Shown: in pieces, positions 4,520 through 8,775 of the stretch
Numbering within the stretch: the first letter of the stretch is position 1
Layout of the letters: every line of letters starts with the position of its first letter
Origin: Oceanococcus sp. HetDA_MAG_MS8
GTDB taxonomy: Bacteria; Pseudomonadota; Gammaproteobacteria; Nevskiales; Oceanococcaceae
Length of the DNA: 64,000 bases
Direction: 5' to 3'
Assembly (NCBI GenBank): GCA_019192445.1
Contig: JAHCMK010000008.1
Location: 1 to 64,000, forward strand
The notes under the pieces: model-generated
What the model saw: the letters and a program-made list of their open reading frames with translations, nothing else
The model's database searches: none
Told to the model about the DNA's origin: nothing
Program-made: the position numbers and the translations under genes

Positions 4520-6505
4520 TTAGAGGTGAGAGCCACGCAGCAAATAAGCCAAGGCCATGCCTTCGCGCGTTACCTTCTGCTCGGGGGCGGCTTGCCCCTT
4601 GGCAGCGGAGGATGATGGGAAGAGCTGGAAGGCACGACCTAAAATGGTGTCATTCACCTTAGGCATGAGTGCATAACTAATCTCGGCCATCCGCCCTACG
4701 CTGGTTTTCACCCGCTTGGTGCGATGAATAGCGGTATCGATGACCGTGTCAGAGGCCGCATCCACGGACCATGCCGGCACATAGTTGTACAACTTGGTGG
4801 GCGCAATCATCGGCGTCCGCACCAGAGGCATGTAAATGGTGCTGATATCGATGTTGTATTGCTTGACCTCGGCCGCGAGGCAGCGGCAGTAGGCATCCAG
4901 CGCCGACTTGGATCCGATGTACGCTGCAAAGCGAGGCGCATTGGATAACACGCCAATTGATGAGATGTTGATGATCTGCCCGCGACGGTTGTCCGCCATA
5001 GCCGGCAACAGCCGATGAATCAGCCGGACTGCGCCCAGGTAGTTCAATTGCAGCGTGCGCTCAACATCGTGGAAACGATCCAAGGACTCCATCACGGCGC
5101 GCCGAATAGAGCGCCCTGCATTATTCACCAGAATATCGACCCGGCCGTGATCCGCCAGGGCCTTTTCGGCCATCTCATCAATGGCCTCCATGTTATTCAG
5201 GTCACAGCTGTAGGCAAACGCTGAACCGCCCTTGGAGTGAATCAAATCGACCGTAGCCTGCAATTTGTCGGCACTGCGTGCGACTAGCAACACAGTGGCG
5301 CCGTTGGCAGCAAATTTGCGGGCCGACTCAAAGCCAATTCCGCTAGAGGCCCCAGTGACCATGACCACCTTGCCGGATAGGCGCGCGGTCGCGCGACGAT
5401 CAGGCTGGGGATAGTCCATCACCGTAGACCAATAATCCCATAAGGTGTCTGCATATTCGCTCAGTGGCGGGCAGCTGATGCCAGTACCGGCCAGGGCATC
5501 GCGGGTACGCCGATCACAAAAGGCTGAACGGTTGGTGATATAGCCTAAGGCCGATACGGGCACCCCGATCGCCTTGGACATTTGCTTGAAGGCCAAATCA
5601 GTGGGCAAGGCCCGGCTGGTTTCACGCAGACCGCTTTGCACCAGCGAAGGCAGCTGAGGCAGCTCAAACTGTTTTGCGAAGCCTGGGCCATGGGCCGCAT
5701 TGAACAGAATCTCCATGACCTGCCCTACGGAGTCCTGTGGTTTTTGCACCAGATGGAAGGCCTGACCATCCAAGCCTTCTTTATGAGCAATAGCCACCAT
5801 CGCATCGGCTACGTAATCGACCGGGGCGAGAGGAATCTTGCCGCCTTCTACGCCGAGTAGCGGTAACCACTTGGGAACAGAATTGGTGATCTTTTGGATG
5901 GTTTTGAAGAAGTAATAGGGACCATCAATTTTGTCCATCTCACCGGTCTGCGAGCAGCCCACCACAGCTCCAGGACGATACACACGCCAGGGCTGGCGGC
6001 ATTCCTCGCGGACAATTTTTTCCGACTCAAATTTTGTCCGGAAATAAGGGTGAGAAACATCCTGCCCCTCATCAAACATATCTTCGCTGAAGTTCCCTAC
6101 CCAGCGACCGCCAGCGACTGCTACAGAACTCACATGCTGCAAACTAACCTCACCACCGAGGTCATTGACGAAGTTCACAACATTGCGCGTGCCTTCGTTG
6201 TTCACCTTATCGCCGGTCGCGTCATCCATATTCAGGTCGTAAACGGCGGCCAGGTGATACACCTGATCGACTTTGCCCTGCAGTGACTTCAGGGTTTTGG
6301 CGTCGACCAAACCTGGCTGGGTGATATCGCCATACACCGGCTTCAAATTCTTGGCTGTTGCACCCAAACGCTTCTTCAGGTCTTCGAACTTTTGTTTGGA
6401 TGACTCCCGCACAAGGACATGCACAACCGCATCATCCTTTTGCAGCAAACGCGCCACTACAAAACGACCAATGAATCCTGTTGCACCTGTGACGAAATAC
6501 TGCAT
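4520..6505 (-). CDS. Two-domain fatty acyl-CoA/fatty aldehyde reductase (wax-ester type)
   Basis: This 661-residue protein has two Rossmann domains. The N-terminal one is an extended short-chain dehydrogenase of the thioester-reductase class: TGATGFIG at residues 6-13, YFRTK as the YxxxK catalytic pair near 158, and a DGPYYFFK segment. The C-terminal one (from about residue 378) is a classical SDR with VTGASSGIG, NNAGRSIRR and a YIGSK catalytic pair. Length and motif order match from memory the Marinobacter bifunctional reductase (Maqu_2220 type), which reduces fatty acyl-CoA to fatty alcohol for wax-ester synthesis. No wax synthase is in the window. AGGAGAAAC precedes the ATG, and a small GC hairpin lies just upstream of that site. 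Confidence 0.88.
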   Translation of the reverse strand: MQYFVTGATGFIGRFVVARLLQKDDAVVHVLVRESSKQKFEDLKKRLGATAKNLKPVYGDITQPGLVDAKTLKSLQGKVDQVYHLAAVYDLNMDDATGDKVNNEGTRNVVNFVNDLGGEVSLQHVSSVAVAGGRWVGNFSEDMFDEGQDVSHPYFRTKFESEKIVREECRQPWRVYRPGAVVGCSQTGEMDKIDGPYYFFKTIQKITNSVPKWLPLLGVEGGKIPLAPVDYVADAMVAIAHKEGLDGQAFHLVQKPQDSVGQVMEILFNAAHGPGFAKQFELPQLPSLVQSGLRETSRALPTDLAFKQMSKAIGVPVSALGYITNRSAFCDRRTRDALAGTGISCPPLSEYADTLWDYWSTVMDYPQPDRRATARLSGKVVMVTGASSGIGFESARKFAANGATVLLVARSADKLQATVDLIHSKGGSAFAYSCDLNNMEAIDEMAEKALADHGRVDILVNNAGRSIRRAVMESLDRFHDVERTLQLNYLGAVRLIHRLLPAMADNRRGQIINISSIGVLSNAPRFAAYIGSKSALDAYCRCLAAEVKQYNIDISTIYMPLVRTPMIAPTKLYNYVPAWSVDAASDTVIDTAIHRTKRVKTSVGRMAEISYALMPKVNDTILGRAFQLFPSSSAAKGQAAPEQKVTREGMALAYLLRGSHL

Positions 6506-6868
6506 GTTTCTCCTCTAGCCCCGTAGCGGGGTTTCCATCCCAACATTCAAGCCGGCAAGAATAAGCCGTGGACGCCCAACAAAAAAGCCCCTGACTAAAG
6601 TTTGACGGAGCTTCATCGAATGCGCGATCCGACCCAGCAAACACAAAAAGAGTTCCCCAAGGCCCAGGACATCATAAAAACACAGCAGACAGCCTCCCCG
6701 GTTCAGCGCCTAGATTCCAACCCGCATGAGGCACGTCGATAAGGGCGCTGCAGACACAGTGCGCAGCTGAGCGCGCCAGGCTTAGTGCGCCGCGGCAAGG
6801 AATATCAACGAAAGCACGGCCACCTAGCCACAGAAGACCCTGACTAATAGCCCTCACACATTAAGTAA
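6506..6868. other. Spacer upstream of the acyl reductase, no gene seen
   Basis: This stretch has no credible reading frame on either strand. The only structure I see is CCCCG-tag-CGGGG at 6519-6531, which on the minus-strand mRNA forms a short hairpin immediately before the acyl reductase ribosome-binding site. The rest leads into the tandem hairpin-rich repeats. Confidence 0.5.
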
Positions 6869-7383
6869 CAAGCGCAGCGATTCACCCCGCGCCAACGCAA
6901 GGGAGCGCCGAGACAATCCGCGAGCACAGCAAGGTGGAGCGCCGCCGGAACGCAGACCGGTTTGACTGTATCAAACCGGCGCGTAGCCCCGCAGGGGTGA
7001 GCCGCATGGACGCGGCGAACAAGCCGCAGCGTATGGGCAATACGTGAGGACTTCGACCAATCGGCAGGACAGCCGATTGGGACGGCGCAGCCGCCGCTTG
7101 CGGTGCGGGACATAGACGTCCCGCATCAATACCGCAGGCGCTCCAGATTGCAAGCGCAGCGATTCGCCCCGCGCCAACGCAAGGAAGCGCCGAGACAATC
7201 CGCGAGCGTAGCAAGGTGGGGCGCCGCCGGAACGCAGAAGCCGCAGCGTATGGGCAATACGTGAGGACTTCGACCAATCGGCAGGACAGCCGATTGGGAC
7301 GGCGCAGCCGCCGCTTGCGGTGCGGGACATGGACGTCCCGCATCAATACCGCCGGCGCCCCAGATTGCAAGCGCAGCGATTGG
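6869..7383. repeat. Tandem hairpin-rich repeat, two units plus a partial third
   Basis: Unit 1 spans 6869-7150 (282 bp) and unit 2 spans 7151-7367 (217 bp). The first 14 bases of a third unit follow at 7368-7381. All start CAAGCGCAGCGATT. The units are nearly identical except for a 65-bp block, 6956-7020, present only in unit 1. Each unit is a string of short hairpins; in unit 1 these are 7030-7044, 7057-7080, 7083-7093, 7094-7103 and 7105-7124. The extra block adds three more: 6957-6979, 6987-6997 and 7001-7016. Reading frames crossing it are low-quality and strand-symmetric, so I do not call genes. It looks like a modular intergenic repeat rather than an insertion sequence; no transposase or CRISPR spacing is present. 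Confidence 0.85.
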
Positions 7384-7395
7384 CTCGGTGCTTCC

Positions 7396-8547
7396 TTAAG
7401 CGACCAGTGCTCTCCCGATGATCAGCTTCATAATTTCATTCGTCCCCCCATAAATCCGCTGCACCCGTGCATCGGCGAAGGCTCGCGCTACGGGGTACTC
7501 CCACATGTAGCCATAACCGCCATGCAGCTGCACGCATTGGTCACAGACTTTGCCCTGCAACTCGGTAGCAATGAGCTTGGCTTTAGCCGCCGTCACCTGA
7601 TCCAGTTTGTGATCCAGGTGCAATTCCAGGCAACGGTCAATAAAGGCCCGGGCTGCGGTGACCTCCGCATCCAACTGAGCCAGCGTGAACTGGGTGTTCT
7701 GGAAAGTCATGATCGGCTTACCAAAGGCCTTGCGCTCCTGAACGTATTTGATGGTCTCGCTAAGCACACCCTCGCAAGCTGCAACAGCGCCCAGAGCAAT
7801 AGACAAACGCTCCTGGGCTAACTCCTGCATTAAATACACGAAGCCCATGCCCTCCTGGCCTAAGAGGTTCTTCGCCGGGACCCGGCAATTGCGGAAGAAT
7901 AGCTCGGAGGTGTCCTGGGCTTTCATGCCCACCTTCTTCAGGTTGCGCCCACGTTCGAAGCCCTCCATCCCCTCTTCTACCAAAAGCAGGCTGGTGCCCT
8001 TGGCACCGGCACTGGGGTCGGTTTTGGCTACCACCACAATCAGGTTGGCTAACTGACCATTAGTAATGAAGGTTTTAGAGCCGTTGAGGATGTAGTCATC
8101 TCCATCACGCACAGCAGTAGTCGCCACGCTTTGCAGGTCTGACCCAGTTCCCGGTTCGGTCATGGCGATAGCGGTGATGGTTTCTCCGCTGACACATCCG
8201 GGAATAAAGCGCTCTTTAATGTCTTCCGAGCCATAGTTCAGCAGATAGGGCACGGCAATATCCGAATGCAAGCTCCAACCAATGCCGGATAAACCAATAC
8301 GGCTCACCTCTTCCACCACAATGGCGTTGTAGCGAAAATCTACGCCGACTCCGCCATATTCCTCCGGCATAGTGGGCGATAAAAAACCTTGCTCACCCGC
8401 TTTGCGCCACAGTTCGCGATCCACATAACCACGTTCCTCCCAAGCCTCATGATGAGGCACGGCCTCGGCCTCTAGGAATTTACGGACAGAATCGCGAAAT
8501 AAGTCATGTTCGGCCTCAAATACCGGCCGTGGCAGGGCTGCGCCCAT
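7396..8547 (-). CDS. Acyl-CoA dehydrogenase
   Basis: FAD-dependent acyl-CoA dehydrogenase of 383 residues that would introduce the first double bond in beta-oxidation and pass electrons to electron-transfer flavoprotein. AMTEPGTGSDLQ (about residues 130-141) is the family flavin/substrate signature. QERLSIALGAVAACE begins the C-terminal helical domain, and the final segment has HGGYGYMWEYPVARAFAD and YGGTNEIM, the latter holding the glutamate used as base in most members. The ATG at 8547 was preferred over a TTG two codons earlier because GGAGGAG lies at proper spacing. Chain-length preference cannot be read from sequence. The stop codon lies only about a dozen bases from the hairpin repeats. 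Confidence 0.92.
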   Translation of the reverse strand: MGAALPRPVFEAEHDLFRDSVRKFLEAEAVPHHEAWEERGYVDRELWRKAGEQGFLSPTMPEEYGGVGVDFRYNAIVVEEVSRIGLSGIGWSLHSDIAVPYLLNYGSEDIKERFIPGCVSGETITAIAMTEPGTGSDLQSVATTAVRDGDDYILNGSKTFITNGQLANLIVVVAKTDPSAGAKGTSLLLVEEGMEGFERGRNLKKVGMKAQDTSELFFRNCRVPAKNLLGQEGMGFVYLMQELAQERLSIALGAVAACEGVLSETIKYVQERKAFGKPIMTFQNTQFTLAQLDAEVTAARAFIDRCLELHLDHKLDQVTAAKAKLIATELQGKVCDQCVQLHGGYGYMWEYPVARAFADARVQRIYGGTNEIMKLIIGRALVA

Positions 8548-8775
8548 AGTCAATCTCCTCCAATGAGTCCGCGACCCAAGGCCTGGGAGACAATACTCGC
8601 TGTAACGCGGCCTAGAGCCGTACAGCCCAGCCTTGAATCAGCGCGACTAAGGCGCCAAAGGCTGTGACTGAACGCCGAGGGTACGCGCCAAGGCCAGCGA
8701 GGTAGTGTGAGTCCCCATGGCCAAAGCCGTGGTGAAAATTACGCTTGCAGACACAAGCCGTGCAGTTAGCATAAT

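Follow-up and report, generated by a model that had tools for sequence, protein, structure and literature searches.

The BOX elements of Streptococcus pneumoniae are modular repeats in which a variable number of internal modules is repeated between fixed ends. MITEs of the IS5 family are short, with IS5-type inverted ends of about 20 bp, YTAR-type flanks of 4 bp and no evident coding capacity, YTAR being given as the IS5 target duplication motif in PMC10359306. Correia, ERIC and QMITE elements are also small, with inverted ends and foldback transcripts, and effects of RNase III or RNase E have been reported for Correia and ERIC (PMC10969869). Additionally, REPs are palindromes of 20-40 bp that include GTAG- and CGTC-tagged forms (PMC3733652). 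The Xanthomonas sRNA sX9 (Rfam RF02228) is among the most abundant bacterial sRNA annotations according to PMC9029176, and its genes are described as upregulated by copper in Xanthomonas in PMC10924375.

A repeat array in Oceanococcus sp. HetDA_MAG_MS8 resembles each of these systems in part. Its element shares the short length, inverted ends, flanks and lack of evident coding capacity of IS5-family MITEs, but differs from them in having a rod body that is common to elements with quite different ends and in having hairpin modules inserted at an internal loop. The variable hairpin modules recall those of BOX, whereas here they interrupt a rod at an internal loop and the host belongs to a different phylum. 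GNAG-hairpin motifs are held in common with the tagged REPs, although the element is longer and has inverted ends and matching flanks. The sX9 model matches one half of the core (apex, left arm and left end) on the opposite strand; at 76 nt, the model covers half of the element. Small size, inverted ends and predicted foldback transcripts link the element with Correia, ERIC and QMITE, which are presumably other sequences. A limited literature search found no earlier description of the whole element.

Graded sizes, inverted ends and matching YTAR-type flanks together make up the anatomy of a MITE with IS5-type ends. The array is therefore probably two tandem copies, with a remnant, of a non-autonomous MITE that has IS5-family-type ends and was presumably moved in trans by an IS5-family transposase; on this reading, a peculiar local repeat becomes an instance of a recognised class. 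The window under analysis is the 64,000-nucleotide stretch G000:C8:1-64000 (positions 1 to 64,000 of contig JAHCMK010000008.1), and the genome searched (G000) is a draft assembly of 3,529,516 bases in 20 contigs. The features of the array and its neighbours, in window coordinates, are as follows:

4520..6505, minus strand: fatty acyl-CoA reductase-type neighbour (NAD_binding_4 and short-chain dehydrogenase; Pfam)
6869..6882, plus strand: remnant of a third unit, of which the right-arm end is left (the identical 14-mer recurs at 7151-7164 and 7368-7381)
6901..6919, plus strand: left terminal inverted repeat of unit A, diverged from GGGAAGCGCTGAAGAAATCC (by-eye comparison with 22 genome pattern matches)
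6920..7160, plus strand: unit A core, a rod hairpin that carries two hairpin modules as inserts (covariance model R1, 40.7 bits)
6957..7021, plus strand: hairpin module M2, inserted on the left-hand strand of the CGCAG/CGAG internal loop and missing from unit B (by eye, from units A and B and from L150 and L138)
7057..7129, plus strand: unit A copy of hairpin module M1, which follows TTCGA on the right-hand strand of the CGCAG/CGAG internal loop (by eye against the forms of about 147 nt, L141 and L153)
7183..7201, plus strand: left terminal inverted repeat of unit B (sequence)
7202..7377, plus strand: unit B core, a rod hairpin that carries module M1 (R1, 58 bits, E 3.6e-13 in 967 kb)
7274..7346, plus strand: unit B copy of hairpin module M1 (CCAATCGGCAGGACAGCCGATTGG; GC-rich hairpin; TGCGGGACATGGACGTCCCGCA) (sequence, direct copies and perfect-hairpin list)
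7378..7395, plus strand: right terminal inverted repeat of unit B (by-eye complementarity to the left repeat)
7396..7399, no strand: YTAR-type flank TTAA, with a stop codon within it at 7396-7398 (sequence and reading frames)
7396..8553, minus strand: acyl-CoA dehydrogenase neighbour, transcribed towards the array, which lies downstream of the gene (Pfam)

The initial annotation had described two near-identical units followed by a third stub, with recurring loops, between a fatty acyl reductase and an acyl-CoA dehydrogenase. Pfam matches on both sides agree with this placement, and the loops recur as ATAGAC at 7112 and ATGGAC at 7006 and 7329. The units are real, as displayed by direct copies that are 94% identical (6869-6956 vs. 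7151-7238 with a spacing of 282, and 7016-7174 vs. 7233-7391 with a spacing of 217), but they are unequal by a 65-nt insert found in unit A only (6957-7021), and the stub is leftmost rather than last. The 14-mer CAAGCGCAGCGATT occurs three times (6869, 7151 and 7368) and corresponds to the right-arm end of a unit; its leftmost occurrence is thus the remnant. The two units and the remnant run up to the TAA stop codon of the acyl-CoA dehydrogenase gene: the array ends at 7395 and is followed by the TTAA flank, of which TTA is the complement of that stop codon. A second TTAA at 6861-6864 is a possible, unproven partner of this flank.

Within the array, folding as RNA was much stronger than expected from dinucleotide shuffles on both strands (z of -5.1 and -6.4 on the plus strand, -5.1 and -4.8 on the minus strand), and none of 200 shuffles folded as well in any of the four tests. 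The array was absent from the Tandem Repeats Finder output; its units are unequal. An Rfam search of 6500-7500 gave no match above the cut-offs, and no promoter-like site was found in the array. As to the transcription or topology barrier that had been suggested as a possible role, 6500-7500 contains a single terminator-like site, which is not part of the array and is within shuffle expectation. Open frames run through the palindromes on the minus strand at 6882-7370 (162 aa) and 6971-7330 (119 aa); these are likely spurious translations of palindromes, which automatic annotation might call genes.

The array belongs to a dispersed family. A DNA search of the genome returned 30 matches, and covariance model R1 located the core at 34 distinct places (E 0.01 or better; 38 rows, less four opposite-strand rows of places already listed). 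The genome-wide copy count thus bears out the earlier suggestion of an intergenic repeat family, and because the unit is neither unique in the genome nor absent from relatives, the array is not a chance local duplication. By eye, the copies follow a common plan of a left end TAGGGAAGCGCTGAAGAAATC, the core and a complementary right end, with inverted ends GGGAAGCGCTGAAGAAATC in common. The 21-nt end pattern, with up to three mismatches, was matched 22 times in 3.53 Mb, compared to 0 for the reversed-pattern control, so that the dispersed copies share terminal inverted repeats as a MITE would. Right ends were located in 15 of the 16 own-genome elements tried, and these 15 elements are short (54-283 nt) and contain no transposase gene.

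Element sizes are graded, in agreement with the modular nature proposed initially: 54 nt (L139, ends only), 80 nt (L140, L143), 147-161 nt (L141, L145, L147, L148, L149, L153, L155, L156, L159), 219 nt (L138, L146) and 283 nt (L150). Longer forms correspond by eye to shorter forms with inserted hairpin modules; unit B is built like the 219-nt form and unit A like the 283-nt form. M1 follows TTCGA in the right arm, M2 follows CGCAGA in the left arm, and the two insertion points face each other on opposite strands of one internal loop (by eye); a different insert occupies the same left-arm position at L193 in another genome. Some copies in the own genome carry other outer arms (e.g., L023). Tandem copies are also found by eye at L002, L014 and L017, and the tandem arrangement, there and in the window, needs a duplication step. 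Relative to genes, 28 own-genome elements were codirectional forward (3), codirectional reverse (9), convergent (7), divergent (3) or inside long open frames (6, including the spurious frame of the window), and 32 elements elsewhere were codirectional forward (11), codirectional reverse (7), convergent (2), divergent (3) or unclassified (9); orientation showed no clear bias.

Target site duplications were found in the own genome, where the flanking 4-mers are identical in 9 of 15 elements (shuffled mean 2.8, p 6e-5), as CTAG (four), CTAA (two), TTAG (two) and ATAG (one), and unequal in the remaining six. In other genomes identical flanks were seen in 4 of 16 elements (p 0.24), and no YTAR flanks occur at the unit boundaries within the array. 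The count left out L142 (right end not sought), L144 (no right end found) and second ends of elements already counted. Targeting of stop codons was considered and rejected: 6 of 16 own-genome elements, the window included, start exactly at the stop codon of a gene, but of the 246 YTAR sites outside coding sequence in 264 kb of the genome, 93 (38%) are themselves stop codons, which is the neutral expectation. The positions therefore fit plain insertion outside genes, with nothing more needed.

The inverted ends and matching flanks point to a transposase, so the earlier proposal of a dispersed family spread by a partner enzyme was largely right, although the enzyme itself was not found. The one PF01609 gene of the own genome was best described by a model of the IS1182 family (411 bits); it also scored just above the cut-off of the IS5 model NF033581 (144.0 vs. 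140), and its ends are unrelated to those of the element (5 of 21 positions). Searches of the own genome for PF01609 and Y1_Tnp thus yielded no cognate transposase, in a 20-contig draft that may lack repeated IS copies. PF01609 was sought in 15 genomes of the order and matched in nine, at 51 places, of which 30 were inspected. The order has four IS5-type elements (L200, L201, L202 and L210), and model NF033581 assigned L201, L202 and L210 to the IS5 family. The ends of these four, such as TAGGGATGCTCTGCACAAC or TAAGGAAACACTGATCAAGTC, agree with the element ends at 13-15 of 21 positions, a level for which the shuffles gave at most 0.00085, compared to 5-8 of 21 for the ends of four other DDE elements (L160, L204, L206, L215). 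Judged by this likeness to autonomous IS5-family elements, the ends of the element are of IS5 type. No ends identical to those of an element were found among the 30 of 51 PF01609 places or among the 16 loci of a partner search outside the order (G256, G111, G196, G216), which gave no matching ends. L223 (G068), an IS5-type element that duplicates L210 in type and ends, was left out of the comparison; it is inserted precisely at the CTAG centre of a palindrome, with arms TGAACTTTTGTTAAAGGACA on both sides.

Nearly the same ends were also seen by eye around unrelated bodies (L175 and L180 in G001; L169, L177 and L184 in G018; L182 in G076; L171 in G077; L168 in G068), as expected if ends and cargo are separable. 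The other-body foldbacks of G018, G076 and G077 contain palindromes of the CCTTCGACAGGCTCAG type. In the proposed mechanism, an IS5-family DDE transposase would act in trans on the inverted ends of about 20 bp, and insertion into YTAR targets would leave 4-bp duplications. The body is a rod-like foldback of about 104 nt with conserved internal loops, one of which has taken up further hairpin modules, and this gives the string-of-hairpins appearance. Since the element sits on the acyl-CoA dehydrogenase stop codon, read-through transcripts would carry a long 3' hairpin. By analogy with the reports on Correia and ERIC, a passive effect on mRNA, through 3'-end processing or stabilisation (protection), would be likely.

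The structure of the core is conserved. Alignment A1, made by sequence alone, comprises 23 cores without inserts from seven genomes, with cores that have inserts or are decayed or partial excluded. Its consensus fold is a single rod without branches. Of its 35 pairs, 22 have changes on both sides, and the double-change cells number 113, compared to 36.1 (sd 4.9) in shuffles and at most 32 with the partner slid. Conserved stretches include GCGAGCG, GGAGCGCAG, CGNAG...TGAG and CGAGCACCG; 20 columns are invariant, 13 of them in paired and 7 in unpaired positions. Compensatory changes could also arise without selection, through arm-to-arm correction of palindromes; such correction should also erase internal loops such as GCA/GA, yet these are kept, which is an argument rather than a test. 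On 29 pairs common to both strand folds, G-U cells exceed A-C cells (32 vs. 11; nominal p 0.002, with sequences that are not independent), which hints at selection as RNA on the given strand. The class-wide count on 26 cores gave three G-U and no A-C, few cells being informative, and a sequence-only alignment of these 26 cores supported 12 apical pairs rather than the whole rod.

The core is not lineage-specific, contrary to the initial suggestion: R1 matches were found in 61 of 229 sampled gammaproteobacterial genomes, the own genome included (E 0.001 or better, with rough E-values), leaving 168 without a match. The sample was spread evenly over the class, with at most 17 candidates scored per genome, a number reached by G000, G111, G256 and G257. 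A covariance model and boundaries are thereby given for a family that matches about one quarter of the sampled genomes. Left arms compared between genomes score 6.2, near the mixed-pair background of 5.6, whereas the two arms of one element have a mean match of 13.1; of 33 such comparisons, 16 exceed the mixed-pair 99th percentile and 17 do not. The arms match within elements and differ between genomes; therefore, the body is shared and the ends are local. The window array is local as well. At the most similar named locus (L058, from an uncultured Ectothiorhodospiraceae bacterium MAG; reductase 85% identical), the reductase and acyl-CoA dehydrogenase genes adjoin across a short intergenic stretch (by eye), with no core match by R1. 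Among plasmid records, the window array itself had no match, and relatives matched entries from Aeromonas, Yersinia, Pseudomonas and Halomonas. Single cores at L037 (G005) and L038 (G017) lie between genes that appear trp-operon-like by eye from the reading frames, their outer arms bearing a stop codon on one side and, on the other, a ribosome-binding-site-like stretch before the next start codon.

It is tentatively proposed, as a possible but rather doubtful extension, that the rod is selected cargo: a conserved structured element, with purine-rich CGCAG/CGAG internal loops and pairing that favours one RNA strand, that would have been passed between unrelated transposon ends across Gammaproteobacteria, with sX9 as one half and with the internal loop as a docking site for hairpin modules, including one common to tRNA-3' repeat arrays. 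More generally, the analysis makes it testable why a transposon body keeps its secondary structure while its ends change.

With respect to sX9, Rfam matches at gathering score were obtained in 2 of 19 loci searched (L293, 56.9 bits; L294, 51.6 bits), and a permissive search of nine loci returned these two plus four weaker matches. Every match lies on the minus strand of the core in one register, corresponding to apex, left arm and left end, and the full rod is present in L293 and L294 (72.1 and 71.0 bits). The window scored 22.1 bits against sX9, below the cut-off of 44, and the own genome gave no matches in a search where control genomes also gave none. At an sX9 locus of Xanthomonas sacchari (sX9, 54.7 bits), the rod is only eroded (12.8 bits, E 0.005 in 675 bases) and the fold is not better than shuffles, so the identity of sX9 with half of the rod rests on L293 and L294. 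Some of the annotated sX9 copies may be halves of a mobile foldback element. At L293, L294 and L337, the sX9 model spans half of the element on the minus strand, and annotation as a stand-alone sRNA gene may need revision.

These matches also bear on an alternative in which the family is a functional structured RNA, either an sX9-like sRNA or a cis element, that is multi-copy by chance and whose ends are a basal stem. The strong covariation of the core, the G-U excess, the gathering-score sX9 matches to half of the core at L293 and L294, and basal arms that vary by genome yet pair within each would all agree with such an RNA. This alternative was nevertheless judged improbable, because the ends are alike within the genome and set in matching 4-bp flanks, most sampled genomes have no match, orientation to genes is inconsistent, and the sX9 strand is opposite to the strand favoured by the G-U count.

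A REP/BIME-type repeat, in which GNAG-tagged hairpins are spread by a REP-associated tyrosine transposase (RAYT), was considered very improbable. GCAG or GTAG precedes many internal hairpins, comparable to GTAG-tagged REPs (PMC3733652), and the own genome encodes one Y1_Tnp gene that falls just below the REP_Tyr_transpos cut-off (74.1 vs. 80). However, the 20-40 bp palindromes of REPs contrast with the inverted ends and matching YTAR-type flanks of the window element, and no core match adjoins the RAYT-like gene (C1 near 464 kb). A RAYT was rejected as the partner on this last ground.

Several M1 and M2 loops resemble the CsrA consensus. A CsrA/RsmA sponge, with GGA loops (CAGGACA, CATGGACG, CACGGATG) in a hairpin string like CsrB/RsmZ and a weak RsmW match (17.8 bits vs. 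a cut-off of 52), is extremely improbable and was set aside, since few GGA loops lie outside the modules, GGA is at the core apex in only 2 of 23 cores (A1) and 3 of 26 (class set), and neither CsrB/RsmZ nor any other Rfam family matched at cut-off. Across 264 kb of the genome, the raw count of perfect hairpins with GGA or TCC in the loop was 18 of 182, three of them in the window array.

Apart from these alternatives, repeat units downstream of tRNA genes and terminator-like hairpins were observed by eye at L022 (G000:C3 near 565761), L036 (G006), L040 and L049 (G010), and L042, L045, L048 and L054 (G001). In these units a module of hairpins related to M1 of the window array (CAATCGGCAGGACAGCCGATTG ... 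GGCCANGGATGGCC) interrupts a duplicate of the tRNA T-arm (GGTTCGA / AATCCC), and several units stand in tandem.
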